Shown here: one piece after another, positions 14,875 through 33,852 of the stretch
Numbering within the stretch: the stretch's first letter is position 1
Layout: every line of letters begins with the position of its first letter
Source: Lyophyllum atratum
Taxonomy: Eukaryota; Basidiomycota; Agaricomycetes; Agaricales; Lyophyllaceae
NCBI GenBank assembly: GCA_014905825.1
Contig: JACGCN010000013.1
Coordinates: 434,001-498,000 of the forward strand
Length of the DNA stretch: 64,000 nucleotides
Direction of reading: 5' to 3'
Notes under the pieces: model-generated
The model's input: only the letters and a program-made list of their open reading frames with translations
What the model was told of the DNA's origin: nothing
Databases searched by the model: none
Translations under genes and position numbers: made by a program

Positions 14875-15165
14875 GTAGGCACACAACCGTGGCCAACATC
14901 TAGGTGGTGATGGGTTTCTGTTTCCGTCGACCAGTAGAGGCCGTCCGGTAGCTTGACATCGAATGCGATTTGGGCATCCGCAGGGAGGCAGATACACGGT
15001 GCCATCCATAGGCCGGCGCTCTATTCTGCAGGTCCGTGATTGCTCGCATACTGTTTCATGTACAGTGTTCCTCGTATTCGTCCCTCCCAGGTCTCACACG
15101 GAACCTGCCCCCTATCCACCCTATCGGTTAGTGCTTCCCATTGGCACATTCAATCAGCCATTCTC

Positions 15166-15490
15166 ATGAACACCCAAGCTCCTACCATGACAATCGCGAT
15201 TGTGGCTTTAGCGCGTACGTTGAGCACCATCTTGCATATGGGCACTAACCGCCTTTTGCAGTCACTGATGTTGGCCTCGGTGAGAACAACCCAAGGAATG
15301 ATGTCTTTGACTATGTACTCTGCGCGGATGGCGTCCTCACACCTGTCAAGATAGAGGTCACTCGCAGTCTGGCTGCGGATATAACCATTGAAACAGGTAG
15401 GTCAACACGTACCCTGGGTCGCCGGTACTTACTTCTCCCAGACATTGCAAGAGAGGTAGTCACGATGGACATTGCGTCCGTGCGAGGAAC
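15166..15490 (+). pseudogene. 5' part of a small gene interrupted by the retrotransposon
   Basis: I do not recognise the protein. Exons read 15166-15214, 15262-15396 and 15442-15490, with introns of 47 and 45 nt (GTACGT...TGCAG, GTAGGT...CCCAG). The third exon is cut by the LTR insertion exactly at the target duplication. Counting the duplication once, the frame continues in phase into 28206 and stops at 28362, giving a protein of 129 residues split near residue 78. The gene is therefore presumably disrupted here. The true start could lie further upstream. Confidence 0.6.
15486..15490. repeat. Target-site duplication, left copy (GGAAC)
   Basis: GGAAC directly precedes the 5' LTR and recurs directly after the 3' LTR at 28201-28205. 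Ty3-type integrases make 5-bp staggered cuts, so this marks a complete insertion with no later recombination between elements. Confidence 0.95.
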
Positions 15491-15955
15491 TGTGACGACG
15501 GTGTGCTACCCTAGATAGCAGACTCGTGGGATTACTCTGACGCGTGCACGACCGGGCCGAGAGCCCTTTTGTTTGTATATATTTACATGTCTCTTGTGTA
15601 TCTTCGCTAGCACGTCCTTTAGGGACTTCATCATTAAATATCATCATCTCTATTTCGCGTTCTCGCTCGCTACAGCAAGACACGCGATGGCTCGACCCCG
15701 GAGGCCACCGGGCCCTGTGCAGGGTGACAGCACGCCTCGCTCAGGCTTACAGAGCTCCGGTGTCGGATGACAACACCCCTACCTAGGGTTACAAGGCCGT
15801 TCTGTCTCGGACAGGCGCTCCTTCGAGCCGCCGTCCCGACCCCTCGCTATTACGCCCTCTCTCCGCGCCGACCTCCCTCGAGGTAAGGCGCATTGAGGAG
15901 CGAATAGCTCGAGTCTTCCTCACGCGAGAAGCCCATCCGGACCAGCTGTATCACA
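15491..15955 (+). repeat. 5' LTR
   Basis: Starts TGTGA and ends TCACA, a 5-bp terminal inverted repeat. A TATATAT run at 15576-15582 is a plausible core promoter. Short open frames inside it are duplicated exactly in the 3' LTR and reflect LTR identity rather than genes. Confidence 0.97.
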
Positions 15956-16259
15956 ATGGTGGGGGCACCGCGGACTTCACTCAAGCGTGATGAAGTCTCT
16001 CAGTCCTACTACCGACGACCTCTTTGGAAGGTCGAATCCCTTCGAAAATCCTTCAAAATTCAGTCTGCTTAGTCCCTACGTTTCCGATCGTCGATCATCG
16101 GTTAGCACGCCACGCTCCCCAACGTAAATTTTTATCATCCGTTGTGCGGCCTCGTTGCACTCCCCAACCGACCACGATACTCGACTATTGGACAACCTGC
16201 CCTCAAGTCCAACGGTTATCAACTACGCGCCCCGACGTATCTTCTTCTGCATAACCGTT
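15956..16259 (+). other. Retrotransposon leader with putative primer-binding site
   Basis: One base after the LTR the sequence reads TGGTGGGGGCACCG (15957-15970). It starts with the TGG expected for pairing with the CCA end of a tRNA primer; I cannot name the tRNA. The remaining 290 bp before the Gag ATG have no supported ORF and are the likely packaging region. Confidence 0.6.
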
Positions 16260-19200
16260 ATGCCTCCTCAGCGAGTCGCGTCCAATGCGGCAGGGACGGG
16301 TGTTACTACTCCGTCCAACCCCTCTGCCACTGGGAAACGACCCACTACCCGTTCTACTCCCGCGTCAGCCGCTGCTTCCTCAGCAGCAGGCGACGTGGTA
16401 CCCCGCTCGACGCCGGCCCCTGGAGTCCCCAAGGGCAAGGCGCGAGCTTCCTCCCCGGTTCGAATCAATCGCTCACCGACCATCGAGACTGTACCGGATC
16501 ATGAGAGCGGATCCCCCCCGGGACCCTCCCTAACATTAGACGGTCCTTTGCTAGAACTGGAAGCCAAGTTCACGAGCAACAAACCTGTTCGGGATCCTCC
16601 TCCTCATCATAGGATGTACCCTCCGACGCCAGGCTCAAGGCGCGAGGGGCGATTCACAGACGACCGTTCGGAGTCAGCAGCCCCGTCCTTAGGCTTCCTT
16701 ACGGAAGCTACTCCTCCTCCTGTTGACGGAACCTCCGCGACTCCACGGGAAGAAGGCGCACCCGCCACGCTAGACTCTCACCCTTTCATATTTGGGGGAA
16801 TACCTGCGTTATCGAGCATTGAGATCAGAGACGAACCCATCGAGTGTTCGAACTTCCGCTACCATCCAACGTTCGACCCCAAGCTGCACTACGATCCAAT
16901 CACTAGATTCGGGGGAGTTGACGGTCGTCTGCCAGGTCGAGACGAAGCTGAATCAACTCTCGTTCGCCACATCCTCATCCGATGGAACGCCCCTCACAAC
17001 GATCTATTGTGGAACACCTTGGAGGAAGGCTTACAGGATTTCCTGACCTTAAAGCTGAGCGCCAAAGACCTAGTCCAGTACCTCGATGGAGACGAGCCCA
17101 TGTACTCGCTGAACGAAGCACCTCTCGGGGACATCACGCAACTCGTGCTAGCTACGCATCAAGTGCTAGACACTCTTGCGGAATTCCTGGCTCTCGGCCC
17201 TGTCCGCAACCGTTTCCGCTACGACCCAGGATTCAAGTTTCTACGGTCCCTTGGGTGGAATAGGCATCGCAACGACATCCTGCTTACTGTAGCCCTTCTA
17301 CAAAAACGAGCAACGATCGCTGCCACTCACATCCGAAACTTCATCAAGAGTTTGGACAGAATCTACCTACGCCCGGAGGATTTGGACTCGATCAGCTCGC
17401 ATGACTCTACGCGAACTTCGGTCAGGTCGCTGTTTGGCGTACTTACGTCTCACGAAGAGCTAAGGAAACTGTCCTACCGACAAAACTATAGGCTATCCAA
17501 AGACCACCCCGAAGCTTCAGCTCAAGAAGACCTTCTTTTGGCCGCGGACGTCCTCATCGATCCAGAACACTTCAACGGGTTACAGGACCCGTATCATCAC
17601 AGGGAACGACGCACGAACAATGTCAATTACGAGACGGCCCCAGGATCACCAGCGGAAGCCAGAGATACCTTACCGTCCATATCGACTGCACGCAATCTTC
17701 GCTTCCAGCTCCCGGACTCTATTTCGAGTATCGGGAGAGGTCACGCTATCACCTCTCTCCCTGGTGTCGGCGCCATTTCGCATGTCCAGCGACAGGCCTC
17801 CACTGTAGCGGCTACCGACGCGGGATCCCAGTCTGGGGGGCCATTGAAGATACAGCCGCCTGCTTCGTTAAAGACTCTACGGAATGTTCCACCGTCGTTC
17901 GCCGTCAAGATCCCTCGTCCCAGCAACTGGACTAGCTACATCTATAAAGCTGGGGCCAATGTCAATTCCATACCTGGCAATGCTGGACGCGGGGAAGAAG
18001 GAAACCAAGATGGTTTGCCCGGTGGAGGCCACCCTGGTGGTAACCCAGGAGGCGATGGACCCCGAGGCAACCCCTACGGCGGAGGCATGCCCGGGGGTAA
18101 TGGACCTGGTGGCGCCCCAGGAGGAGGCGGACCAGGCGGAGGTGCCCCAGGAGGAGGCGGATCAGGCGGTGGTGCCCCAGGTGGAGGCGCGCCGAGTGGA
18201 GGTGCCCCAGGCGGTGGTGCTCCCGGAGGCGGAGACGGACCAGGACCGGGTTACTCCCCACGGTTTCCGTATGATCCCAACTTCACGGAGGAATGGCAGC
18301 TTAACCATAAGCTGAATCTGTCAGTTCTGCCTTCCTGGGATGGCATGGGTACCACTGCGGTTGATTACCTTGGGACCATGGGACATCTAGCGACGCTTAG
18401 CCAGAAGATGCGCGAAGGACTAGCGCAACTCGCGCCATTCAAGTGGACTCTTCGCGCTCTCAGCTGGTGGCAGACTCTACCATCCGATGTTCGAACTTAT
18501 CTCTCCCAAGACTGGAATGTTATGTTACTCGGCATCCGAGCGCATTTCCTCGACGAAAATTGGATCAAGGAAAGAACCTTTGAGTTCGAAGAAATGAGAT
18601 TCAGGCAGAAGGGCTGCGATCGCGAGGATCCTATCGACTATATCCAGCGTCGCATCAAACATCATTCCTTTCTGTACCCCGAAGACGAGGACGGACCATT
18701 AGCCGTTTCTCGTATTCTGCGCAATAAACCCACGGAATGGGATACCACTGTCAATGAGCGTCTCACCCCCTCCATCTTCGAACTTCAAGCTGTTGCTAAG
18801 CGTATGGGAAGCACCCTTATCAGTGCTTGGGAACTTGCCGAGAAGATGCGGAATCCACAACCGTACTATCGGAATAACAGTCGCAGATCCGCTCACGCCG
18901 CTGACTTAGTGCAGCAGGCGAGCGATGAGTTACCTTCAGAGGAAGATTCTGACGAAGACCGCGAAGCCCATGCAGCGCAGTTCCGCGGTCGTAATGGGTC
19001 TTCCAAACCATCCAAACCATCCTCTGAGAAGAAACCGTGGCCAGAAGGGAAGACTATTAACGGATATGCCTTCACTAGAGACGATAAGGTGGCAAGTGAT
19101 AGACGTCCGAATGGGTCTTGCTACATCTGTACCAGCCCCATGCACTTTGCTCGCGACTGTTCACATTACGGCAAATGGGACTCTCTACGCTCCGCCAACT

Positions 19201-22200
19201 TGATAACCGTGGACATAGCCGACGATATCATAGCTCAACATGATAGAGAGTATGTAGCTATGCTTGTGGAATCCAAGGTCTCTTCTTCCGCTTATTCTGA
19301 GAGTGAACGTGAACCGGATCATGCTGCTGCGACCGAGGAACACGTCGCTTACGTTCATTTAGCCGACGCCTTCCCTTCCGAGTTCTATGGCCCCAACCGG
19401 AATTATCGAAGACGAGTTATGTTTTCGAATAGGAAATTAGCCAAACGATCAGCACGAGAATCCGACCTTAGTACGTCTACTGAGGAACCGATGCTCTCGA
19501 CAGATTTACCCCCTCCACCTCCGCCATACGTAGAAATCGTCGCCGCTAGGAAGGCGCGATCTCTCCCTGCGGGATATGGCTCGTTAGGGTCTCGAGCTTT
19601 ACACATAAAAGCTCATATCGGCGCCGTCGATCAGGCCCCCGTCCAGGGCCGATTGGATTCAGGCGCTGATATTACCTTAATGTCCGAAGAATACTGGAAG
19701 TCTATCCCTGGATTACCAGCTCCTAAGGAGGGCATGCGCATTAAACTCTACCACCTTACCGGACATGCGAAGGTCTTGGGATATGTCACCACCACCTTGT
19801 ACGCCGAATCAGCCGACCACCGTATGGTGAGCTTCGAACTAGAAGCGTACATTGTCCGCGATATGAAAGTACCGCTGCTCCTAGGCGAAGACTTTCAGAT
19901 CACTTACGAACTCGGACTCACTCGGCACGTTACTGGTCACTGCGAAGTAATAGTCGGAGATTCCGATCTTGTTATACCTGCCTCGTCAGCGCAACAAGTG
20001 GATCTTGGGTTCGAAATACGGAAAGCCTTCAAGGTTCAGTCCTTCGTGCGCTCTAAAGCGGTGCGACGTGGTCGAGCACGAGCCAGGGACTTCGGCCATA
20101 CCGACCCTCCAGTCGTGGCGTCTGAAGATGTGCTCATCACAGCGGAATCTGTACATAACGTACCCGTGGATGCTCCTTTCGGGGAGAAGAAGGAGTGGCT
20201 AGTCGAAAAAGTTATCATCGGTGACCCCGGGATGGCTGTGCTTGCAGCCCCAACGACGTGGATTTCGGCAGGATTCCCTTATCTACCCATTGCCAACCCG
20301 TCGAAGACTCCGTGGTATATCCGGAAAGGCGACATAGTAGGCTACCTTAAGAATCCTGAAGACTTCGCAGATAAACCTGCTACTCCGGAGGAATGGGATA
20401 AATACACCGCCTCAGCCGAAGCCTTGAAAACGGTCGTAGAGGGAACGCTCAGAGCTCAAGACCTCGCTAATGCCCAACCCTCCGACGCCCCTTCTGCTGA
20501 AGATCAATTAGCATCGGACGACGCTTGGGGTCCGAAAACGACCGCCCTACCTGACGAACCGATGACCGGTGACGTCGCCGAACTCGTAAACCTTGGTCCT
20601 GATATTCCAGAGGATGTGAAACCGAAACTAGCGGAGGTATTGCGTAAACATCGCACAGCGTTCGGTTTAGACGGCAGACTAGGAAAGGTTGACGCCCGGG
20701 TAGACGTGCCATTGAAACCCGGGACCACCCCCATATCCGTGCCCATGTACGGCGCGTCGCCAGCTAAGCGAGAAGTCATCGAGAAACAAGTAAACTCATG
20801 GTTTGAAGCGGGAGTCATAGAGCCTTCTAAGAGTCCTTGGGGATTCCCAGTGGTAGTCGTTTATCGTAACGGCAAACCGCGCCTAGTGGTTGACTACCGC
20901 AAACTTAACGCGCAGACGGTGCCGGATGAATTTCCTATTCCTCGACAATCGGAAATCATCCAGGCGCTGTCTGGAGCCCAAGTTCTTTCGACTTTTGATG
21001 CCCTTGCGGGATTCACGCAGTTGGAAATGGCCGAGTCGGCGAAGGAATGCACCGCTTTCCGTTGCCATCTCGGGCTTTTCCAGTTCAAACGTATGCCTTT
21101 CGGCTTGCGGAACGGACCATCCATCTTTCAACGTGTTATGCAAGGTGTTTTAGCCCCGTTCTTATGGCTGTTTACCTTGGTGTATATCGACGACATAGTG
21201 GTGTTCTCAAAATCTTGGGATGATCACTTGGTTCATTTGGATAATGTGCTAGGCGCTATTGCGGCTGCCGGCATCACCCTATCTCCCCCGAAATGTTTCG
21301 TCGGGTACGCGTCCATTCTGCTTTTAGGACAGAAAGTGTCCCGCCTCGGCCTTTCTACACATCAGGAGAAGGTTAGCGCTATCATTGACCTAGCGAGGCC
21401 CCGATCCATGGCAGATTTACAGAAATTCCTCGGTATGGTTGTATACTTCTCGTCATACGTCCCTTTCTATTCCTTTATCGCCGCTCCGCTTTTCGCCCTG
21501 CTGCGCAAGGGCGTCCGATGGACTTGGACCGCTGAGCACGAGATAGCGTTTGACCAAGTCAAGAACGCTCTCTCTAGCGCCCCGGTGCTAGGGCATCCCG
21601 AACGCGGTCAGCCTTATCGCCTCTACACCGATGCTTCCGACTTCGCGCTCGGCGCCAGTCTTCAGCAAGTACAGGCCATAGCGGTTAATGATTTGAAGGG
21701 CACTCCAATGTACGACCGCCTCTGTAAGGCTTGGGACGCGGGGGCGGACGTCCCCAGCCTCGTGCCGGTATTGTCGAAGGACGTCGACGAGGGACTTACT
21801 ACCCGTACCCCCTGGGGTCTCACCCTCGACGACACAGTTGTACGCGTTGAACGCGTCATATGCTATTGGAGCCGAACTCTTCACCAAGCGGAACGGAATT
21901 ACAGTGCTACGGAGCGAGAGGCCTTAGGCGCTAAGGAAGCCCTCGTCAAGTTCCAACCGTTCATTGAAGGCGAAACCGTTATCTTAATTACGGATCACGC
22001 CGCATTGCAATGGGCCCGTATCTACGAAAACACCAACAGGAGATTGGCTGCGTGGGGGGCAGTATATGCCGCATATCCAGGGCTAAAGATCGTGCATCGC
22101 CCGGGGCGGATTCATTCGAACGTCGATCCTTTATCCCGACTACCAAGGATTCCGCAGCACAACTCTCCTTTAAGAGACGACATTCTCCCAATCATTCCCG

Positions 22201-24140
22201 ATGAGGAGGCTCAGAACATCGCTCAATCAGCGGAAGACGCTGGTTCTCATGCTCCAGCCAAGAAAGCCGCCTTTACAGTTTGGTGGTGGGAAGATATCAT
22301 TGACAAGGAAAGCCATCCTATACAAACGCGTAGCGCTACCAAACGAGTTGCTCGTGAAACGCCGGGCCAAGGAGAGGACCTTTCCTCCGAGGCTACAGGC
22401 GGCCGAGTTAACCCATCTAGCGTCCCCGCTGGAGCCGACTCAGCAGAATCGGACGATCTACCTAACCAGTCTAGCGTCCCTGCTGGAGCCGACTTGGCAG
22501 AACCGGACGATCTGCCTTTCCCAAATAATGACCCTTGGACTTACCCGACGGGAGTGAAACCGCCGGTCGAAGAACCAGAAGACGATTGGTCCAAAAAGTC
22601 GCATTTGCTCATTTCCATGAATCCCGAAATGATCAAGAGGTTCGCGCAGGCCTACAAGGACGATCCAGCATTTAAGAATAATTACATAGAAGAAGTTCCG
22701 AACCCGAACAAGGTCCTCACGCCATCGCGATACCAAAAGGGGAGTAACGGCCTCCTATATTTCATTGACGCCGACTGGAACGCCAGACTATGCGTACCAA
22801 AGGGAGAAGTTAACTATGTTCTTCGGTGGATACATGAATCCCCTTTTGAAAGTGCCCACGCCGGACCTCGAAGGTTCCTGGCGAGGCTCAAGGAACTCTT
22901 CTTCTGGCCCCGCATGTTTGCCGATGTTCACGAGTACACAGCGTCGTGCGACATCTGTCAAAAGATCAAAACGGATCACCGTCGCCAGATGGGTGGCCTG
23001 CGACCTGCGCACGTTCCCGCTAGACCCTTCGCCACCGTCTCCTTAGACCTTATCACTGGCCTCCCTCCTTCTGGGGACTTGAAATACACCGCTATACTAG
23101 CGATTATCGACAAACTAACCAAGTACGCCCTCTTCATCCCGACCCACGAAGAACTTTCGCAGGAAGGATTCGCTAAAATCTTTGTCGAACGCGTCGCTAA
23201 CGTGTATGGACTACCCGAACGCATAATTGCTGATCGAGATCGCCGTTGGTCAACGGCCTTCTGGCGCTCGGTCGTAGAAAGTTATGGCAGCGTTATGGCT
23301 CTGTCTTCGGCTCATCACCCTCAAACGGACGGACAGACGGAAGTGCTGAATGCCATGATTGAACAAATGCTGCGCGCTTACGTTGCCACAGATCGTTCGT
23401 CCTGGGCTCAGTGGTTATCTGCCTTAGCTCACGCCTACAACTCCTCCGTCCATTCCTCAACCTCTTATTCACCAAATTTCCTGCTCATGGGTTACAAACC
23501 GCAAACTACCGCGGGAGTTGTAGCGCCACAAAACGATCCAGTCTCACGTCCCTTCTTGCCCAGCCAAAAGGGAGAAACTTTTGTTGAAGAAATGGAACTA
23601 CATCGTAAAAACGCTCGCGACTCCGTTATCCGAGCCCAAGAACGTCAAGCCCGTGCTTACAACAAAGGGCGACGACCCATAGTCGAATTCGACTTAGGTG
23701 ATTGGGCTCTGGTCAATCCTCACTCTCTCGAACTAGTCGACGTCAAAGGTACCGGTCGTAAACTTATACAACGCACAATCGGCCCCTTTGAAGTCCTTGA
23801 AAAGGTTAACCCTATGGTCTACCGGTTACGACTCCCCGACACATATCCCATGCACCCAGTATTCAATCTACAACATCTACGGCGCTATACGCCATCCGAC
23901 CCTAAATTTGGAGAGCGATCCACGCTCCCCCCCACTCGCGACTTCCTAGCCACGGAAGAATATGAAGTCGAAGCCATATTAGGCCATCGAATTGATTCAC
24001 GAAGAAAAGCCAATCGACGAATGTACCTTATCCGCTGGAAGGGATACGACCCTACAGAGGATAGCTGGGTATCCGAATACGACCTTAGAAACGCGCCTGC
24101 CTTGAGGCGCGAGTATCACGCGATGGCGAGTCTCACGTGA
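16260..24140 (+). CDS. Gag-Pol polyprotein, Ty3/gypsy chromovirus
   Basis: One continuous frame of 2626 codons from the first ATG; an upstream in-frame TTG is not needed. In order: a Gag region with a long Gly/Pro-rich linker (18019-18246) and a capsid-like block, then one zinc knuckle CYICTSPMHFARDC (about residue 953). The aspartic protease has DSGAD (about 1133). Reverse transcriptase has YIDDIVVF (about 1642), and RNase H starts at TDASDFALG (about 1790) with an inserted ~62-residue segment. The integrase has an H-H-C-C finger ending CDIC and DDE residues in SLDL, DRDRRW and TDGQTE. A GPF module and a C-terminal chromodomain (EYEVEAILGHR...YLIRWKGY, about 2566-2620) follow. The chromodomain probably guides integration to modified histones. 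No gag-pol stop or frameshift exists, so Gag excess must come from processing or another route. All catalytic residues I checked are present. Confidence 0.97.
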   Translation: MPPQRVASNAAGTGVTTPSNPSATGKRPTTRSTPASAAASSAAGDVVPRSTPAPGVPKGKARASSPVRINRSPTIETVPDHESGSPPGPSLTLDGPLLELEAKFTSNKPVRDPPPHHRMYPPTPGSRREGRFTDDRSESAAPSLGFLTEATPPPVDGTSATPREEGAPATLDSHPFIFGGIPALSSIEIRDEPIECSNFRYHPTFDPKLHYDPITRFGGVDGRLPGRDEAESTLVRHILIRWNAPHNDLLWNTLEEGLQDFLTLKLSAKDLVQYLDGDEPMYSLNEAPLGDITQLVLATHQVLDTLAEFLALGPVRNRFRYDPGFKFLRSLGWNRHRNDILLTVALLQKRATIAATHIRNFIKSLDRIYLRPEDLDSISSHDSTRTSVRSLFGVLTSHEELRKLSYRQNYRLSKDHPEASAQEDLLLAADVLIDPEHFNGLQDPYHHRERRTNNVNYETAPGSPAEARDTLPSISTARNLRFQLPDSISSIGRGHAITSLPGVGAISHVQRQASTVAATDAGSQSGGPLKIQPPASLKTLRNVPPSFAVKIPRPSNWTSYIYKAGANVNSIPGNAGRGEEGNQDGLPGGGHPGGNPGGDGPRGNPYGGGMPGGNGPGGAPGGGGPGGGAPGGGGSGGGAPGGGAPSGGAPGGGAPGGGDGPGPGYSPRFPYDPNFTEEWQLNHKLNLSVLPSWDGMGTTAVDYLGTMGHLATLSQKMREGLAQLAPFKWTLRALSWWQTLPSDVRTYLSQDWNVMLLGIRAHFLDENWIKERTFEFEEMRFRQKGCDREDPIDYIQRRIKHHSFLYPEDEDGPLAVSRILRNKPTEWDTTVNERLTPSIFELQAVAKRMGSTLISAWELAEKMRNPQPYYRNNSRRSAHAADLVQQASDELPSEEDSDEDREAHAAQFRGRNGSSKPSKPSSEKKPWPEGKTINGYAFTRDDKVASDRRPNGSCYICTSPMHFARDCSHYGKWDSLRSANLITVDIADDIIAQHDREYVAMLVESKVSSSAYSESEREPDHAAATEEHVAYVHLADAFPSEFYGPNRNYRRRVMFSNRKLAKRSARESDLSTSTEEPMLSTDLPPPPPPYVEIVAARKARSLPAGYGSLGSRALHIKAHIGAVDQAPVQGRLDSGADITLMSEEYWKSIPGLPAPKEGMRIKLYHLTGHAKVLGYVTTTLYAESADHRMVSFELEAYIVRDMKVPLLLGEDFQITYELGLTRHVTGHCEVIVGDSDLVIPASSAQQVDLGFEIRKAFKVQSFVRSKAVRRGRARARDFGHTDPPVVASEDVLITAESVHNVPVDAPFGEKKEWLVEKVIIGDPGMAVLAAPTTWISAGFPYLPIANPSKTPWYIRKGDIVGYLKNPEDFADKPATPEEWDKYTASAEALKTVVEGTLRAQDLANAQPSDAPSAEDQLASDDAWGPKTTALPDEPMTGDVAELVNLGPDIPEDVKPKLAEVLRKHRTAFGLDGRLGKVDARVDVPLKPGTTPISVPMYGASPAKREVIEKQVNSWFEAGVIEPSKSPWGFPVVVVYRNGKPRLVVDYRKLNAQTVPDEFPIPRQSEIIQALSGAQVLSTFDALAGFTQLEMAESAKECTAFRCHLGLFQFKRMPFGLRNGPSIFQRVMQGVLAPFLWLFTLVYIDDIVVFSKSWDDHLVHLDNVLGAIAAAGITLSPPKCFVGYASILLLGQKVSRLGLSTHQEKVSAIIDLARPRSMADLQKFLGMVVYFSSYVPFYSFIAAPLFALLRKGVRWTWTAEHEIAFDQVKNALSSAPVLGHPERGQPYRLYTDASDFALGASLQQVQAIAVNDLKGTPMYDRLCKAWDAGADVPSLVPVLSKDVDEGLTTRTPWGLTLDDTVVRVERVICYWSRTLHQAERNYSATEREALGAKEALVKFQPFIEGETVILITDHAALQWARIYENTNRRLAAWGAVYAAYPGLKIVHRPGRIHSNVDPLSRLPRIPQHNSPLRDDILPIIPDEEAQNIAQSAEDAGSHAPAKKAAFTVWWWEDIIDKESHPIQTRSATKRVARETPGQGEDLSSEATGGRVNPSSVPAGADSAESDDLPNQSSVPAGADLAEPDDLPFPNNDPWTYPTGVKPPVEEPEDDWSKKSHLLISMNPEMIKRFAQAYKDDPAFKNNYIEEVPNPNKVLTPSRYQKGSNGLLYFIDADWNARLCVPKGEVNYVLRWIHESPFESAHAGPRRFLARLKELFFWPRMFADVHEYTASCDICQKIKTDHRRQMGGLRPAHVPARPFATVSLDLITGLPPSGDLKYTAILAIIDKLTKYALFIPTHEELSQEGFAKIFVERVANVYGLPERIIADRDRRWSTAFWRSVVESYGSVMALSSAHHPQTDGQTEVLNAMIEQMLRAYVATDRSSWAQWLSALAHAYNSSVHSSTSYSPNFLLMGYKPQTTAGVVAPQNDPVSRPFLPSQKGETFVEEMELHRKNARDSVIRAQERQARAYNKGRRPIVEFDLGDWALVNPHSLELVDVKGTGRKLIQRTIGPFEVLEKVNPMVYRLRLPDTYPMHPVFNLQHLRRYTPSDPKFGERSTLPPTRDFLATEEYEVEAILGHRIDSRRKANRRMYLIRWKGYDPTEDSWVSEYDLRNAPALRREYHAMASLT

Positions 24141-24238
24141 TGAATGCCCGGATAATTCCGTGCTTATGGCCAGTTGTTGCTGGCTGAGTTTCAATCTTAA
24201 CTTCCTCATTCCTACTCTATCTTTTCTCGACCGCTCAA

Positions 24239-24260
24239 GGCTGTATCTCGTATACGTGCC
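24239..24260 (+). ncRNA. Hairpin element, copy 1 of 4
   Basis: Outer GGC/GCC stem, inner GUAU/AUAC stem, 5-nt loop. It is flanked by CTCAA before and GGGGC after. All four inner pairs are Watson-Crick. Confidence 0.8.
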
Positions 24261-24298
24261 GGGGCAGTCACTGTTCTACCGCTTTCGCACTCGCCCAA

Positions 24299-24320
24299 GG
24301 CTGTATCTCGAATATTAGCC
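24299..24320 (+). ncRNA. Hairpin element, copy 2 of 4
   Basis: Same architecture and length. The inner stem is GUAU/AUAU, where the outermost inner pair becomes G-U wobble. Flanks CCCAA and GGGGT. Confidence 0.8.
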
Positions 24321-24356
24321 GGGGTGGGTTTCTTTTTTTCCTATGTCCTAGCTCAA

Positions 24357-24378
24357 GGCTGTACCCTGAGTATTTGCC
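24357..24378 (+). ncRNA. Hairpin element, copy 3 of 4
   Basis: Inner stem GUAC/GUAU: the innermost pair is C-G instead of U-A, with both sides changed. The loop is CCUGA. Flanks CTCAA and GGAGC. Confidence 0.8.
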
Positions 24379-24432
24379 GGAGCCTGATACCCCCTACCTT
24401 AGATAGCTACTTCCTTATACCAGCTCGTTCAA

Positions 24433-24454
24433 GGCTGTAACTTCGTTACCTGCC
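24433..24454 (+). ncRNA. Hairpin element, copy 4 of 4
   Basis: Inner stem GUAA/UUAC: the innermost pair is A-U, again changed on both sides. The loop is CUUCG. Flanks TTCAA and GGGGC. Confidence 0.8.
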
Positions 24455-24521
24455 GGGGCGCGTTTGGGTGCTCCATTTTAATCAAAGTTCTACCAACCTT
24501 ACACTATAATTCGCTTCGGCC

Positions 24522-27500
24522 ATGGACTCTCGCCGTTTCCCTACTCCCCGACTATCTAGCCTCGCGGATTTCTACGCGGCGCCTAACGTGGACGATTCGT
24601 TACAGTTCGACATCCCCCCTTTCTCCCAATACAACGGCTGGACTCTTAAGGAACAATACCTCGCGTGGTCTCCTAACTCTACCGTCACCGCTTTCCTCCC
24701 GGGCGTCGCTCCTCCCGGCCACTCTACTATCCCGTCTACTAACATCCGGCAACGACGATTCGATGGGTCGTTAGGACGTTTTGATTGGACGGTAGCACCC
24801 CAAATGGCGAGCGAACGTATCTGGAGGGCGCTCTGCTTACGTCCCAAGATAGGCTACGAACGTCGCGGAGAGATGCCGGAATACGAATTCCTGACAAAAC
24901 AATGGATATCGTTAGACCAGGACACGGGCTGTTTCAGGCCGGATTATTTGGACCGCCTACGGGCTCGTGTGGCGGACCTCGATCGGCAGATAGCCTCCCG
25001 CAGTGATGAAGTACGTGGTGCCTACATCAGGTTCTGGGACCTACGCCCTCGCGACCCCAAACCGTCTGACGTAGAATCCCTGGTGCAAGTAAAGACCTGG
25101 GCTGATGCGGTAGATCAGGGCGCCTCGGTATTGAGAGGCCTCAAGGAGAAAGCTGCTTGGCTCGAATTCACTTACAGGCTGTCGACGGAAGAGTGGAATG
25201 CCTCCATAGCTCGAGTACGAAGCACGGGAGTTCCTTCAGCATCTGACGACTACTTTGGGGCATGGATAAATGGCAGATGGACAACCCAGTCGCTATGGCT
25301 GCTCAGCCAAGCTATCCCATGCTTCGTGGCCCATCTCTTAGACCAGGATGAGATCTACTTTGACCCTTACCCCGACCCCCCCCGCCCTCATCGTCACTGG
25401 TGGGAAGGAACCGACGCTGAAGCATTGTCGAAGGAGCACCATCCCTACGACCACGTCGCCTTAAGGAACCTTAGTTCGCGGGCCTCTTACCATCCTCCTC
25501 TTTTTCCTCAACTTCTTCCGCCAGCTACTCCAGAGTTCCACCGCGCCTCCTTCCCTCCGAATCAACGATGGAGGGGACCGTTAGTGGGGTACTCGGATTC
25601 ACCACCGCCTCCCTCGCCAATCCGTGGAAATTCCCCACTCCTCGAATCGCCCCTCGAAGAACCCTCGGGACCCCAGATCAGTCCTGACTGCGAGGCCGCT
25701 CCTCTAGAGCGTGTCCAGCTTTATTCTGATCGGGAACCGTGGATTAAACCGCCGGCGCTGTTTAACAACAGACCTAACGGCTCGTGGAGTCGATGGATCA
25801 CGGACGATTGGGAAGTTTGCACGGAAGTTGGAAGGAAGAACCCGGAAGTGGAGGGGTATGACTACAGCGTGTATGACCGCCATAACCAGCGGAGGATTCA
25901 TTACGATACCTTGCCTCCCCCTCCGTCCGGCACAGTCGGGGAAGGTAAATACGGTCGTCCAGCTCCTAGATCACGTTACCAGGGGCTAGCAGGTGAGGTC
26001 GTCGGATCCCGATGGCTTTATCACAGTGAGTACCCGGCGATGTCCGACCTCCCTGTACGGATCCCAGAACCGCTCGAGTCCGATCTACCTCCCCGTCCTC
26101 GCTTAGATGTCGCTACTTTGGTCCCCTTTTCGAGCGAAGGAGTGCCCGTCGATACGCCGTTGAGCGGACAAAACGCTCAAGGAGGCGGCGACGCGGAAAT
26201 GGAAGATTTCGCTTTGTCCTTTGGTTCTTCGCCAAGGGCTTCCCCTGTCCACACCACTTCGACTACTCCTGTCCTTGCGGCTTCATCCTATCTGCGCTCC
26301 ACCGCCTTTCCAACGTCGACGACTTGGGCAGTGATAAAGGATAGTCTCTTGAGCCTAGCGGTGGACCGGCCGGATATTCACCTCCTGAGCATCGCCCTGA
26401 CGATTGATCGGGCGACAGCGAGTACCGACTTCGGCCATACGGTCTGGATCTCAGCATCCTCCGAGGACAGCGCGCAAGCCCTGCGTTTAGCCTATGTGGG
26501 ACCTACTTCTGGAGGCCCTCTAGCTACTCTGCAGTGGGCTACGAAGGTTGACTTTGAGCGGGCCTTTGCAGCGGCAGTACATTTGTGGGCCGCCCCTGTC
26601 CAACCAGATCCCGTCTCCCCTGCGTCGCCTCGCAGTCCCATGCAAACAGATCAATGGTCGCCCCCTCCCCTGCGAAACCTCCCTGAGGCCGTTTCTCGCG
26701 GGCGTTCTCGGGGGCCCCCGAGCGGACGGTTCCCTTCCGACGGAGGGTACTCGCGACCCCGAACTTTACGATCGCGCAGCAGATCGCGTTTGTCACCTTC
26801 GTACGGGGCAAGGCGCTCGAGAAAAGGGAAAGAACGTATCAGCTCCGACTTTCCTCGGGCTGTAAGACGCGGGACTGATTCCCGCAAGCGGTCTCAATCT
26901 CCTTTCCGTTCTCGCAGGTCGCCGTCCCCTTATGCGAGTCACAGGCGCCAGCTTAGTCCGGGTCGCCATTGGTCGCCATCTTCCTCACGTCGTCGTTCGC
27001 CGTACCTCCGGTCCCGCTCCTACCAACGCTCTCCCTCCCCGGAAACGTCGACACGCGAGACCATCCGCTCTCGTCGTTCAAACGCCTCCTCAGTCCCGTC
27101 TCCTGCCATAGCAGCGCCCTCAGTTCCAATGCCTGGAACACCGGAGTTTGGTGTATACCTCGCTGAGTTGGTCGCCCGCACGGTCGTGACGATGGCGCAA
27201 TTCCCGCCGGGGGGCATATCCCGGTCGACCTCCGAAGGAACGTCTGCGCTGCCAGTAGCCTCTCCCGCGATCTCACCAGACGCAGTAGCTTCGGGCTCCT
27301 CTACTCGCGTGCCATTGGTTCCTCCTGCAGTGCCTACTCCTCCCCCACGCCCTCTAATGTCGCGCTTAACGGACCCTTCTCCCCAGAGGCCTTTGCGCGA
27401 TCGCCTGTCCGGCACGGTGCCATTGGCCACGCGCTTCCAAGCCGCGAGCACATCGCAGCCTTCCTTGGCTGCCAGGATGGGTGTCGGACTGGCGCATCGC

Positions 27501-27740
27501 CTCTCGCAAGGTCACTCCGCGCCTGCAAGCGGGTCGGTTACGATGGCGGGGGGCGCGACCTCAGGGCAGTCACAACGCTCAAAGAAGCCACATCGGGCGG
27601 GCCGCAAGCATACAAAGACACTCATTCGTCGCGCGATTGAGGACGGCACCTACGACGAACATTACGGACGAGGCGCTTCGGAGGACAGGGATGAGCAGGG
27701 GTCACCCGGCTCCAGTCTTCCACGCGGGGGGGCACTGTGA
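24522..27740 (+). CDS. Additional retrotransposon ORF downstream of pol, Arg/Ser-rich
   Basis: A 1072-codon ORF in the position where env lies in retroviruses, but with no signal peptide and no membrane segment that I can see, so an envelope role is unlikely. The ATG has a good context (GCCATGG). The N-terminal ~300 residues look globular, with Trp-rich helices and the phrase WLLSQAIPCFVAHLL (about residues 260-275). The middle is proline-rich and loosely structured. About residues 723-859 (26690-27100) form an RS-type domain with many RSRS, RRSPS and SPS units resembling splicing-factor tails. The C-terminus is basic (KKPHRAGRKHTK). The stop codon falls inside the first bases of the 3' LTR. 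Possible roles are RNA binding, control of splicing or export of the element RNA, or nuclear targeting. I do not recognise a named family. Confidence 0.85.
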   Translation: MDSRRFPTPRLSSLADFYAAPNVDDSLQFDIPPFSQYNGWTLKEQYLAWSPNSTVTAFLPGVAPPGHSTIPSTNIRQRRFDGSLGRFDWTVAPQMASERIWRALCLRPKIGYERRGEMPEYEFLTKQWISLDQDTGCFRPDYLDRLRARVADLDRQIASRSDEVRGAYIRFWDLRPRDPKPSDVESLVQVKTWADAVDQGASVLRGLKEKAAWLEFTYRLSTEEWNASIARVRSTGVPSASDDYFGAWINGRWTTQSLWLLSQAIPCFVAHLLDQDEIYFDPYPDPPRPHRHWWEGTDAEALSKEHHPYDHVALRNLSSRASYHPPLFPQLLPPATPEFHRASFPPNQRWRGPLVGYSDSPPPPSPIRGNSPLLESPLEEPSGPQISPDCEAAPLERVQLYSDREPWIKPPALFNNRPNGSWSRWITDDWEVCTEVGRKNPEVEGYDYSVYDRHNQRRIHYDTLPPPPSGTVGEGKYGRPAPRSRYQGLAGEVVGSRWLYHSEYPAMSDLPVRIPEPLESDLPPRPRLDVATLVPFSSEGVPVDTPLSGQNAQGGGDAEMEDFALSFGSSPRASPVHTTSTTPVLAASSYLRSTAFPTSTTWAVIKDSLLSLAVDRPDIHLLSIALTIDRATASTDFGHTVWISASSEDSAQALRLAYVGPTSGGPLATLQWATKVDFERAFAAAVHLWAAPVQPDPVSPASPRSPMQTDQWSPPPLRNLPEAVSRGRSRGPPSGRFPSDGGYSRPRTLRSRSRSRLSPSYGARRSRKGKERISSDFPRAVRRGTDSRKRSQSPFRSRRSPSPYASHRRQLSPGRHWSPSSSRRRSPYLRSRSYQRSPSPETSTRETIRSRRSNASSVPSPAIAAPSVPMPGTPEFGVYLAELVARTVVTMAQFPPGGISRSTSEGTSALPVASPAISPDAVASGSSTRVPLVPPAVPTPPPRPLMSRLTDPSPQRPLRDRLSGTVPLATRFQAASTSQPSLAARMGVGLAHRLSQGHSAPASGSVTMAGGATSGQSQRSKKPHRAGRKHTKTLIRRAIEDGTYDEHYGRGASEDRDEQGSPGSSLPRGGAL
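27724..27735 (+). other. Polypurine tract region
   Basis: A G-run at 27726-27732 lies three bases before the 3' LTR, where plus-strand synthesis is primed in LTR elements. It is also coding, forming the last glycine codons of ORF2. Confidence 0.7.
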
Positions 27741-28200
27741 CGACGGTGTGCTACCCTAGATAGCAGACTCGTGGGATTACTCTGACGCGTGCACGACCGG
27801 GCCGAGAGCCCTTTTGTTTGTATATATTTACATGTCTCTTGTGTATCTTCGCTAGCACGTCCTTTAGGGACTTCATCATTAAATATCATCATCTCTATTT
27901 CGCGTTCTCGCTCGCTACAGCAAGACACGCGATGGCTCGACCCCGGAGGCCACCGGGCCCTGTGCAGGGTGACAGCACGCCTCGCTCAGGCTTACAGAGC
28001 TCCGGTGTCGGATGACAACACCCCTACCTAGGGTTACAAGGCCGTTCTGTCTCGGACAGGCGCTCCTTCGAGCCGCCGTCCCGACCCCTCGCTATTACGC
28101 CCTCTCTCCGCGCCGACCTCCCTCGAGGTAAGGCGCATTGAGGAGCGAATAGCTCGAGTCTTCCTCACGCGAGAAGCCCATCCGGACCAGCTGTATCACA
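27736..28200 (+). repeat. 3' LTR
   Basis: 465 bp, reading the same as the 5' LTR throughout by eye, with TGTGA...TCACA ends and followed by the GGAAC duplication. The corresponding TATA-like run lies at 27821-27827. It should supply the transcript's 3' end. Confidence 0.97.
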
Positions 28201-28205
28201 GGAAC
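28201..28205. repeat. Target-site duplication, right copy (GGAAC)
   Basis: Matches 15486-15490 exactly. Confidence 0.95.
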
Positions 28206-28362
28206 TATGGTCCACATTGTTGACCTCCACAGTTCGTCCATCTCTTTTCCCGCAGACCACTGCCTCATAAGCCATGGTGTTGCAGGTTACGGTGTGTACA
28301 TTGAGGTACAGAACACCTTACGCGCACTCAAGATCGTAGTGCGCCTGTCTCGTTGTGGTTAA
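28206..28362 (+). pseudogene. 3' part of the gene interrupted by the retrotransposon
   Basis: This 157-nt stretch continues the third exon that ends at 15490. The codon spanning the target site becomes ACT (Thr), and 51 further codons follow to a TAA at 28360-28362. Codon composition is protein-like (His/Ile/Val-rich). No domain recognised. Confidence 0.6.
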
Positions 28363-28436
28363 CAACGTAGTCGTAGTATTGAGTCTGCACATAATACACT
28401 GTTTTATACGATATGGCCTGCATGCGAGCGCCTACA

Positions 28437-29374
28437 TCAAACCCAGTCCTCACGCAACCGCCGGCTTTGACGCCGTTCCCTGAATTCACACATGGGATTC
28501 CTGCATATTCCTAGCAACCTCCATACCACCGGAGCGTGGTCAACCCTCAACCCCCTCGATGCATCCGTATCCCACACGAAGCTCGCAATCCCACCCCCCC
28601 CCCTGACCCGACGGTGTATAGCCCCGCACTCCCACCCACATCGTCCCCGCAACACCCAGAGACCCGGTGGATCCATTAACATCACACCCATCACCGAGTG
28701 ACGCGCGCGTTCCAAGCTCGTGGCTTTGATGAACCCAGGCACAGCGAATCCTGCGCCGGTTAGATGCGGATAGAAACAGGTGAAGCTTCTACCGGTTAGG
28801 ACATTCATCAACGCAGTCGAGCTCCCGTCGAGCACAATGGTTAACACTGTCGTCGTCATACTCTCCGCCACAGCCACCATGCGGTTGTTCCCAGGCAGCC
28901 GGAAAATGGTGTATGATCGTGTCGTGTCCGCACGTGCTGGCATGACGTTGCCAGACAAACAAGTAGCGCCGCAAGTGTGTAGGAAGGTGGCCATGCGTTC
29001 CACCATACCGCAAGGAACGACAATGTTCAGGTCCTCCGGTTCCCAAGCCCTGTTCGCCTGCGCCTGGAAGATTGCTAGGCATGTAGAGCCGCATACGACG
29101 CCCTGGATGCTGTCCAGTGTTTCCCAAAACTTGCTCAGAACGCCTTTATGTACGGTCAGCACATGTGGCCTTGTGAACAAATAAACTGTTACCCACCATC
29201 ATCTGCAAAGTAAACGTTGAGCGCAGAGTTGCAGATAGACTTTAGGTGTTCATGTGTAGCGCGGTGTCCCCTCCATGAAAGCTGGCCAACCGCAATCGCA
29301 GCATGGACGTCCACATAGCAAAGTAATTCGCGCAAGAAGTCCTCCATGTCGAATGCAGCATTGATGGCGTTCAT
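28437..29374 (-). CDS. F-box-like protein with nucleotidyltransferase-like region
   Basis: Two exons, 29374-29197 and 29143-28437; the 53-nt intron has a GTGGGT donor and AAG acceptor and restores frame. The first exon encodes a short helical F-box-like segment (MEDFLRELLCYVD...). The second contains CGSTCLAIF followed about 13 residues later by EDLNIVV. That resembles the GS...[DE]h[DE]h layout of nucleotidyltransferase folds, with Asn where the second acid would be, so activity is doubtful. Genes of this shape are common and lineage-expanded in mushroom-forming fungi (family knowledge, not checked here). The function is unknown, and the family assignment is my inference. The next gene upstream, also minus-strand, encodes a BTB protein. 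Confidence 0.65.
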
Positions 29375-29720
29375 GGTTGCGATGTTTCTCCCCCTTTCCT
29401 GCCGGCCTTAAGGACGGCGCCGACTGAGTCATGAGGGAGTGCGTGACAAGCTGGATAGGAGACAACCTCCTTTCCACCATGTAAAATCATGTGTCACCCA
29501 GCTAACACTTGCATACTCGGTCAATTCCAGGCCTTGCGTCATGGACACGATGATGACAGGGGCCCGCTCATCCCGCCGTCCCCCGATAGTCGGCATTGAG
29601 CACCCCGCACTGCAACATGCGTGTAACACGATTATCCATTGCAGACATATAGTACATCCCCCATGTCTGTTACAGGAACTCTGCGTCAACATCCAATACC
29701 AGATTACTCTGCCAACACAG

Positions 29721-30768
29721 TCAGTTCACGGTCGACATATTCGCGGACTCGCTCACCAGATCTTCTTGCAAAAGGCAGATTTCTTCCCAGTTTCCCATAT
29801 CAAAATGCAGCGGCAACTCCCCCCACACCCGCCTTCTCCCAGCCGCATGCATCTCCTGCGCCTGCTCGCCACAAACTGAACATAGTGCCGACTCCCACTC
29901 CTCGTTCCACTCCTCCAGAGCTCTGATCTTGCGGATAGGTCCCCATGAAGCCAGTGTCATGGATGCTATGAAGTTGTCGCACAAAGTAGGTCTTGTACAA
30001 GCGGTCGAGGGTAATGCCCGCAGCCACCTGAACGTGTGTTCGTCCTGCGCAACAGCCAGCCGATCCCTGCCGATGCTGCATATCGCTTGGTCGCGCAAAG
30101 CGATCCTCACAGTGGTCCCGTCATCACGCACGAGCCCTGCCATGAGTTGTTCCTGCAGAAACATTGAGCGTTCACTGCCTCCATGATGTACCATGGACCC
30201 ACCGACGTGTACTTGCAACATATGCTGTATAACAAAGGCGGCACCGAGCCATACAAATCATTGGCGTACGCCATTCCTAGCAACTCGAACTCGAAGCCCA
30301 CACACTCCTCAATTCGAGTGAACGGCTTGCGGCGGGAATACTCCCATGCCGAAAGGGCAGCCGGGTATTCCACTGTCACGCGGTCAGCCATTGCAGCGAA
30401 CATCCCGACATGCGCGTATTTTCGTCCCATCCGCAGGAGCGAACCCACTTCCGCCAGAGGTATCGGTCCCGGACTGCCGAGGCCACTGCCAGGCCGATAT
30501 GAACATCACCGATCGTTCAACACGACAGAACCACATACCTGTTAATGTTATACACGCCATTGATGTACCTGACAAGGTCCTCAGCGCAGTCATCGAGCAA
30601 AAGTATGGGCACCCCTTGGCCGCTGATGGGATGATCCGCCCAGAGACGACGGAAGACGGCCGAGTGGTATCCCACAACATCCCGGTGTACACGCACTGTC
30701 GCAGCGTCGGCACAAATTATGACATTGCCGTCCTCGAAGTATAAGCCAGGTATGCTTTCAGAAGACAT
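29721..30768 (-). CDS. BTB/POZ domain protein
   Basis: Three exons: 30768-30540, 30473-30203 and 30152-29721 (first border read from the AAC-AG/GTATGT donor). Introns are 65 and 50 nt and all joins are in phase. The N-terminal BTB fold is visible in YFEDGNVIICADAAT-(VRVHR), the hydrophobic VVGYHSAVFRRLW helix and LLLDDCAEDLVRYINGVYN. A second helical block (AEVGSLLRMGRKY...AALSAWE) is the continuation typical of the fungal BTB family. A Cys-containing segment near 29850 (CSVCGEQ) lies towards the C-terminus. BTB proteins of this type dimerise and often adapt substrates to cullin-3 ligases; for this family that is inference. About 250 residues in total. Confidence 0.75.
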
Positions 30769-32274: not shown

Positions 32275-33425
32275 TGTGAACTATGACGTGTCTGAACGCG
32301 CAAAACTTGATTTTGCGCGTTTGAAACACGTCATTATTCCCACCCCTGCACTCTGCCCGTGAGAAAAAGAATTGTAAGGAGCGACGTAGACTTACCATGA
32401 CAATAGCGATGGTAATGCGAGGGAGAGAAAAAAACTTCTAGCACCAGTCAACTGTTCCCTCCCAAGTAAGGGCAGCTGGTCCGAGGTGACGAGGCACGCA
32501 AGTCTTATATCTGAGATTGTCTTGGGCGTGGGCGTGGTAGTGTATGATATCAGCCCCGTAAGTGGCGTCCTGATCCTCATCCCCGTCTTGCAAATGTATG
32601 GTTCCCGCTCCAGACGCCAAAAGTGGGGTGGACCAAGAGCTAGCTTCCCAGCGTATCAAGCTAGAATGCGTGCACAGAGTACCGTAGACGAGGATATTGC
32701 CGGGGGCGACAACCTGGAGACACGCAATAAGTAGGACTACGGGTAGGCCACAGAACATCAGGCTGACCTTGCCGACACCCTGCTCATAATTCGCCTGTCC
32801 CGAAAGTGACAGCGCCGTTGCGAGATCGAGCTTTGATTGGACTTGCTGGCCTTAGATCGAAGACTTCTTTGCTCCTGCCGTGAGTGCTTGGGCGCCGCTA
32901 ACACCGCCACTGTTGCCTCCGTTAACGTTGGGCGCAGTGTTGGAAGGTGTAGGTGGAAAGACGAGTGTAGTTTCTGTATTCGAGGGGGATCTAGGTCAAC
33001 ATTAACATTATGAGGAGATAGAACATGAGGCACTCGCACCTCGAAAGGGTGCGTTGGCTCGTTGCACAATGTTCGCGTGATGTCGTGGAAGACGAAGCTT
33101 GCCCACTGATCGATAGTAGAACGTCAAGCCATCTGCGAGAATACTAATTAGTTCCCCGGCCACCCTAAGAATTTGATGATAACACATACCTCGAGTTAGT
33201 CCATGTGTTTGTCGAGTAATAAAAGTAAAAAAAAATCACTCTACACTGCATTTGGGATGGCATACGTGCATCACTGAAAGTAACCGCAACTTATACGGAT
33301 GCCACTATGCCTTGGTGCCATCCCGCAGTGACACGTCTCGAAGGTGTTCAAGACGATGATGTTGGGTCACAACGCGCGTAAACAGACATGAGCTGGCTTC
33401 TTTGGCTTTGATTGGCGACCGGCAC
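32275..33425. repeat. Dispersed repeat, copy 2
   Basis: Direct-orientation partner of 13852-14874. The two are nearly identical over several hundred bases (for example 32790-33415 against 14240-14865). They are interrupted by a private insertion here at about 32535-32785 and a private one in copy 1. The pair brackets the interrupted gene and its retrotransposon. Confidence 0.8.
32285..32332. other. Nested inverted repeat (hairpin), copy 2
   Basis: Outer 7-bp stem GACGTGT/ACACGTC and a perfect 11-bp inner stem AACGCGCAAAA/TTTTGCGCGTT around a CTTGA loop. Confidence 0.85.
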
Positions 33426-33852
33426 GGAGTTCACCGAAAAACGATGGGTTCATTACGAGTCGGGGACTGGCGCGTGCGCCGCTACGATGGGCAACTTAGA
33501 CTTCCAACAAGTCCAACATCAAGACCCCTGTGTTGGGAGCACTGCTCATTCCTTTAGTACTCTGACTCCCTGTCCGCGCTCCATCTTTGGCACGCGTGGA
33601 CTCATCTTACCACTGATCACTGACTTCCACCACTCTCTCCTCTCTCCATTCTCTCTATCATATAAGTAAGTCTTGCCGACCAAAGAGAACTTGCGGGAAA
33701 TTCATGGGCAGATACTTACCACAGCTTACCACTCGACGATGGGACGCGCGGTGGTTTTTTGTTCAGGACGCACACGCCCGCAAAAGAAGGCACACACAAG
33801 TCATGCGACAGCGTGCTTCTATCACCTCATTTGAGGAACATATTCGCAACTA
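33426..33852. promoter_or_regulatory. Upstream region of the chromate transporter gene
   Basis: No ORF of note. A pyrimidine-rich tract with CTCTCC/TCTCTC repeats (about 33635-33660) and an ATATAAG element (about 33660) precede the gene by 190 bp, which is a typical fungal promoter layout. Confidence 0.4.

Follow-up and report, generated by a model that had tools for sequence, protein, structure and literature searches.

The host element

The window analysed here, a stretch of 64,000 nucleotides from Lyophyllum atratum, contains a complete, recently inserted chromovirus with identical LTRs, and an array of four hairpins sits within this element, in the 381-nt spacer between gag-pol and a second ORF (ORF2). 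Placement among the Ty3/gypsy chromoviruses follows from its LTR-flanked gag-pol, in which Pfam detects a reverse transcriptase (RT), an RNase H, an integrase (zinc-binding and SH3 parts only) and a C-terminal chromodomain.

15486-15490 and 28201-28205: target site duplication (TSD) GGAAC, flanking both LTRs
15491..15955, + strand: 5' LTR, 465 bp, TGTGACG...ATCACA, identical to the 3' LTR
15956..15973, + strand: primer-binding-site-like stretch ATGGTGGGGGCACCGCGG, common to a lineage-D element and non-coding elements; putative PBS
16155..24140, + strand: gag-pol ORF, 2661 aa as listed from TTG; RT, RNase H, integrase zinc-binding, SH3_Tf2-1 and chromodomain (Pfam)
24209..24232 (approximate), + strand: CT-rich tract 5' of the array; ATG depletion begins 3' of it
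24233..24265, + strand: hairpin unit 1, outer stem GCUC/GGGC, GGC/GCC, inner stem GUAU/AUAC
24293..24325, + strand: hairpin unit 2, outer stem GCCC/GGGU, inner stem GUAU/AUAU
24351..24383, + strand: hairpin unit 3, outer stem GCUC/GAGC, inner stem GUAC/GUAU
24427..24459, + strand: hairpin unit 4, outer stem GUUC/GGGC, inner stem GUAA/UUAC
24522..27740, + strand: ORF2, 1072 aa, no Pfam match, Arg/Ser-rich stretch in the second half
27736..28200, + strand: 3' LTR, with polypurine-like GGGGGGGCAC directly before it

The AlphaFold prediction for ORF2 (mean pLDDT 41.2) gave no usable model and was discarded. Older direct repeats (13852-14878 and 32275-33429; pieces 91-97% identical, ~18.5 kb spacing) flank the chromovirus, which appears from its surroundings to be nested inside another, LTR-like element. 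A hairpin, (G)GACUUCA...UGAAGUC(C), lies directly downstream of the PBS in the window (15972-15998), in the lineage-D element L055 and in the non-coding element L051, and may be a clade-wide reverse-transcription or packaging structure.

Structure of the hairpin units

The preliminary description had listed four units starting at 24239, 24299, 24357 and 24433, each spanning 22 nt from GGC to GCC, and these are present in the sequence, with all inner stems and 5-nt loops exactly as written there. Its further statement that flanking CAA and GGGG are conserved holds for the most part; unit 3 has GGAG, and moreover most of the flanking bases pair when the units are folded. The folded unit consists of an outer 4-bp stem, an AA/G internal loop, GGC/GCC, a small internal loop, the inner stem and the terminal loop, giving a full unit of 33 nt with an interrupted 11-bp stem, longer than the 22 nt originally delimited.

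Folding energies of the single units are ordinary (z -0.8 to -1.7 versus shuffles), and folding energy was discarded as evidence for structure since the units lie just 0.8-1.7 sd below shuffles; in a z-score scan across the element, the two lowest values fall in gag-pol and the array ranks third. Taken alone, the four window units show thin covariation, with one pair changed on both sides. The preliminary description knew of no described counterpart, and our searches agree as far as they reach: Rfam 15 returned no match at gathering score, two below-gathering matches in window positions 15000-30000 both lie away from the array, the sequences L051, L037, L020 and L046 gave nothing at E up to 1, and no counterpart is among the matches listed for the open-licence part of the literature.

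Distribution of the A-type motif

We searched the 64.8-Mb genome for the hairpin type of the window (A-type) with the pattern AAGGCTRTAN{7,8}TANNNGCYGG, using the reversed pattern as a control. All 40 matches (40/40) fall within nine pol-ORF2 spacers, and the control returned 0. Direct reading of all nine spacers assigned these arrays to seven lineage-A elements (three copies with four units and four copies, designated A', with five) and two lineage-B elements (four units each). Array length thus varies among close copies, the A' elements (L015, L016, L017 and L030) having five units, with the first doubled, compared with L013.

A covariance model whose training set includes the four window units recovered them at E < 1e-9, the next match in the window having E = 2.1; matches of the models R1, R2 and R3 to the units they were trained on are trivially true, and the window result shows only the absence of others. 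By this model there are no further A-type hairpins in the window, the type being confined there to the pol-ORF2 spacer of the chromovirus. A relaxed genome pattern gave 80 matches (reversed control 29), with 31 in the nine known arrays and 49 elsewhere without clustering, no two of the latter lying within 10 kb of each other.

Hairpin types of sister and distant lineages

Of 23 spacers read from ORF2-bearing elements, 22 contain an array; the sample includes many close copies and hence fewer independent cases. The lone exception, L039 (C75, about 990 kb), is a lineage-A copy in which the whole array is gone along with the start of ORF2. Within this one genome the hairpin type differs from lineage to lineage.

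Type C1: L025, two units
Type C2: L026, L027, L028, L031, L032, L035 and L036, two long units each
Type C3: L029 and L033, two long units each
Type D (GYGAC-C-stem-YGAY-GUURC): L037 and L041, four units; L038, five units

For the C2/C3 pattern, 18/18 matches fall in nine elements, two apiece, with a reversed control of 0 and no cluster outside autonomous elements. Own-arm pairing in C2/C3 (12 units) is moderately above shuffles (70/5000).

Six elements were assigned to lineage E, which is more distant (pol end 43-46% identical); their ORF2 is a different one, the single E ORF2 compared giving no BLASTP match to the window ORF2. The four of these elements analysed carry two bulged hairpins, which begin at -68/-67 and -25/-24 from the ORF2 ATG (4/4), with modest covariation (both-sided changes 17/500, cells paired 53/500). 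An R2 match in the lineage-E locus L043 was taken as chance, being antisense to the element and containing a long insertion. Three F elements (40-41%) have another ORF2 and short spacers with TATTTAA; no array was seen in them by eye and neither R2 nor R3 matched. L050 belongs to a more distant clade (31%) and was left out of the analysis.

ORF2 and gag-pol differ in how far they have diverged. The N-terminal half of ORF2 shares 67% identity with lineage B and 35-38% with C and D, a 500-aa gag-pol stretch (window 18300-19800) is 86% identical to B and 65-69% to C and D, and the pol end is 93% identical to B (main match) and 79-89% to C/D (pieces included). The faster change of ORF2 than of the compared gag-pol stretches points to ORF2 as a candidate reader of the hairpins, although this is suggestive only. 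In the 5' leader of the D element L055 (C90 53900-55700, minus strand), short, partly palindromic stretches around GACCACGTTGGTTTC are repeated and could be dimerisation loops.

Covariation and constraint

Lineage B (C100 and C82), whose ORF2 is 59-61% identical to that of the window, is the sister lineage with which the units of lineage A were compared. The first inner pair is G-C or G-U in lineage A and A-U in lineage B, and the innermost pair changes in step across both lineages (U-A, C-G or A-U). With eight A/B units in a hand-set register, 32/32 inner pairs hold against a shuffled mean of 27.0; 8/20000 shuffles reached 32. Over 11 distinct units, 98.3% of 121 cells are paired (shuffled 93.2 +- 1.2, 0/500), the covariation score is 0.342 (shuffled 0.226 +- 0.028, 0/500) and seven cells are changed on both sides (shuffled 3.0 +- 1.2, 0/500). 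The remaining two of five measures stay at the shuffled level, namely the number of pairs with both-sided change (2 vs 2.0, 411/500) and that of further pair types (10 vs 9.0, 150/500). MAFFT misplaced a gap in unit B4, the innermost pair of which is therefore counted as 'other' in the 11-unit alignment. Arms beyond the outer stem gave no significant pairing (575/5000; 241/5000 with the outer stem included).

Units also changed less than linkers, both between A and A' (1/132 vs 21/257, p = 0.0018) and between A and B (22/129 vs 60/200, p = 0.009); in the two D elements compared, units are no more conserved than linkers (p = 0.44). The preliminary description had attributed the paired changes in the window to selection on RNA structure, a claim that relatives lacking covarying pairs would contradict. 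No such case occurred among the relatives: such pairs stand out clearly in lineages B and D and more weakly in C2/C3 and E. The RNA structure is well supported, and selection on it is supported.

Non-coding LTR elements with D-type hairpins

The D pattern returned 47 matches genome-wide (reversed control 23), of which 13 belong to the three D elements and a further 26 form five clusters spanning about 1-4.5 kb; the other eight are isolated and correspond to chance level. The five clusters proved to be five LTR elements, each with an LTR pair; there are two further LTR places.

C61, 968623-975901: non-coding element
C70, 262356-269437: non-coding element
C86, 1868932-1876448: non-coding element
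C119, 618747-623754: non-coding element
C77, 608306-616235: non-coding element

The C61 copy has identical 420-bp LTRs, a TSD (CAGTG) and the same PBS and polypurine tract (PPT)-LTR junction as the window element, and none of its nine scanned ORFs contains a Pfam domain (best E 0.12, below the cut-off), the gene check covering this copy alone. C61 is the only one in which all features of a large retrotransposon derivative (LARD) or other non-autonomous LTR element were found, namely an LTR pair, PBS, PPT and TSD with no gag or pol. Sequence was sampled from four of the five elements (L051-L054), three of them incomplete at their ends; a PBS was seen in L053 and a PPT in L054, and the ends match this clade wherever they could be read. 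Similarity of the LTRs was rejected as a guide to the helper of these elements, the value being 0.73 to D and 0.73-0.78 to A, B and C, which is no difference.

Model R2, built from five D units, gave 13, 15, 12 and 14 matches in L051-L054 at E < 1, a threshold at which about one chance match is expected per search, and 54/54 lie on the sense strand. Each of these four elements holds about a dozen D-type copies spread over its body. Because MAFFT misplaced a gap in the D units, we tested pairing by shuffling each unit's own arms. The 54 units used for this were selected by regular expression (13 from D elements and 41 non-coding; near-canonical only) and differ from the 54 model matches; their outer arms pair at -5.80 kcal/mol (shuffled -3.90 +- 0.26, 0/2000) and their inner arms at -2.84 kcal/mol (shuffled -2.03 +- 0.14, 0/2000). 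L054 taken alone showed no own-arm advantage over shuffles. Units are more alike than the rest of the sequence in 5/6 pairs of non-coding copies and not in the remaining 1/6.

In addition, the three elements with an available 5' region (L051, L052 and L053) carry circularly permuted D modules downstream of the PBS, in the order YGAY (or CGUU/UGUU)-GUURC-stem-loop-GYGAC-C and enclosed by a complementary stem. From 23 permuted rows, four were dropped as coming from D elements, where adjacent normal units had been read across, and five as overlapping second readings of one site, and the 14 sites retained were retested. Own arms exceed shuffles both outside (-7.64 vs -5.54 +- 0.58, 1/2000) and inside (-6.75 vs -4.95 +- 0.45, 0/2000), some of the 14 representing one site in related copies. 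These permuted modules point to the internal loop and its two helices as the part that is probably recognised. For the A-type, the relaxed genome pattern gave no cluster outside the spacers, and no non-coding element of this type came to light.

The spacer as a possible ORF2 leader

Downstream of the CT-rich tract, the ten A-D spacers contain a single ATG in 3013 nt against 15.8 in shuffled sequence (0/1000), and upstream of it they contain 13 against 11.1. This depletion suggests that ribosomes scan across the array in A-D, as they would if the spacer formed the leader of an mRNA for ORF2 alone. The lineage-E spacer has no ATG depletion 3' of the tract (12 vs 9.7) and an excess 5' of it (10 vs 5.4), with zero ATG in the last 130 nt upstream of ORF2.

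Several short motifs were noted around the pol stop and the spacer. A 17-nt direct repeat (GCGAGTATCACGCGATG/GCGAGTCTCACGTGATG, window 24109-24142) ends at the pol stop. Most A-C elements have CACGTGATG at the pol stop (window about 24134-24143), and D elements have it just 3' of the stop, where it is non-coding; some C2 copies have CTCGTGATG or CCCGTGATG in its place. At this position CACGTGATG may be a promoter element, and CACGTG, the CT tract and TATTTAA are likewise possible ones. In the F-lineage elements L047-L049, TATTTAA stands 94-123 nt upstream of a third kind of ORF2 and looks like an internal TATA promoter.

Interpretation

We propose, with a probability of about 0.5, that the arrays are multi-copy sites at which an element-encoded protein recognises, and most probably gathers or packages, its own RNA. 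Protein binding, the identity of the reader and packaging as the outcome are what we infer: the Gag nucleocapsid would be the most likely reader, with the ORF2 protein as the alternative, each lineage's own hairpin type would confer lineage-specific recognition, and several copies would provide avidity. Since the array lies in the ORF2 leader, translation of ORF2 could be tuned through these sites as well, and the two roles can coexist. Non-coding LTR elements with many D-type copies could be taken up in trans, and their hairpins are the strongest clue to recognition of the RNA. For the A-type array of the window, a packaging role would follow by analogy with lineage D, since the genome patterns turned up no non-coding element with A-type hairpins. 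Several results speak against the proposal: A-type clusters are absent outside the spacers, the LTRs of the non-coding elements single out no helper lineage, L054 alone shows no own-arm advantage, units and linkers are equally conserved in the two D elements and in one of six pairs of non-coding copies, and Ty1 and Ty3 have their packaging-related sequences at the 5' end.

Among the functions that the preliminary description had put forward (ORF2 translation, export, packaging or processing), recognition and packaging, or export, are now favoured over ORF2 translation alone, because the non-coding D-type elements have no ORF2; the separation is partial, as the ATG depletion in A-D and the fixed distances in E still fit a role in ORF2 expression. 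In the main rival explanation, the array would be a 5' leader that regulates an mRNA specific to ORF2, made from an internal promoter or by splicing; the hairpins would control initiation on ORF2, either as an operator to which an element protein binds or as an IRES or shunting structure. Depletion of ATG 3' of the CT tract in the ten A-D spacers, the exact spacing of the E hairpins from the ORF2 ATG (4/4) and the TATTTAA of the F elements 94-123 nt upstream of ORF2 all speak for such a leader, yet it would leave unexplained why non-coding LTR elements hold many D-type hairpins without any ORF2. The lineage-E spacer taken whole also lacks ATG depletion (12 vs 9.7), the distance from array to ATG varies in A-D, and three F elements possess ORF2 but show no array by eye and no R2 or R3 match. 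We regard this as a somewhat unlikely explanation.

Less probable still is that the hairpins are constitutive-transport-like elements for RNA export or stability whose reader is a host protein. Internal-loop hairpins that recur towards the end of the genomic RNA and are spread in non-coding relatives would also fit this; however, a different type per lineage in one genome argues against a single host reader, which would not readily explain it. We consider it very improbable that the repeats act as DNA (transcription-factor sites or recombination) or are neutral expansions without function. The doubled first unit of the A' copies does show that arrays expand, and single-unit folding energies are ordinary, but G-U pairs and both-sided changes, the location of 54/54 model matches on one strand and the slower change of units than of linkers in two of three comparisons are all contrary to it.

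Building on the proposal of RNA recognition by an element-encoded protein, a more tentative extension is that sister lineages use distinct hairpin 'passwords', with two to five copies before ORF2, by which each lineage's protein would pick its own RNA. Non-coding elements, carrying about a dozen (some permuted), would then ride on another element's machinery; the hairpins would serve as a self/non-self mark, and the fast-evolving ORF2 would be a candidate reader. The motif is compact, repeated and covarying, with natural variants across sister lineages, and the non-coding elements amount to a natural experiment in which it stands outside a coding context.

Comparison with known systems

The arrays share with the packaging signals of retroviruses and LTR retrotransposons (psi; Ty1 and Ty3) a cis-acting, structured genomic RNA with several stem-loops and an expected Gag reader. 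According to PMC11381356, packaging-related sequences of yeast Ty1 and Ty3 are placed in the structured 5' end and those of Ty3 are not precisely defined; the way in which LTR retrotransposons select their own RNA is imprecisely defined even for this element. The Ty3 nucleocapsid zinc finger is described as critical for packaging (PMC4974528). The arrays give the genomic RNA a conserved secondary structure, which is a mark of packaging signals; a 5' leader position is not found for the A-type array of the window, which lies in the pol-ORF2 spacer as tandem copies of one lineage-specific hairpin type. Retention by non-coding relatives is seen for the D-type, whereas the A-type and C2/C3 patterns form no cluster outside autonomous elements.

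The non-coding elements are reminiscent of LARDs and other non-autonomous LTR elements in their LTR pair and, in the C61 copy, also in the PBS, PPT, TSD and lack of a recognisable gene. They differ in holding about a dozen hairpins of an autonomous relative plus permuted modules downstream of the PBS, and no LARD-like element with such hairpins is among the matches listed for the open-licence literature.

Constitutive transport elements of simpler retroviruses are repeated internal-loop stem-loops late in the RNA that bind the export receptor NXF1/TAP; the arrays share this layout but differ in that their types are lineage-specific, and a search of open-licence papers on this theme listed none. 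The coat-protein operator/packaging hairpin of RNA phages (MS2 type) is short, interrupted and near a start codon, and can serve both recognition and translational control. Although they belong to a retroelement and have only a putative reader, the hairpins described here resemble the MS2 type in form and in proximity to a start codon.
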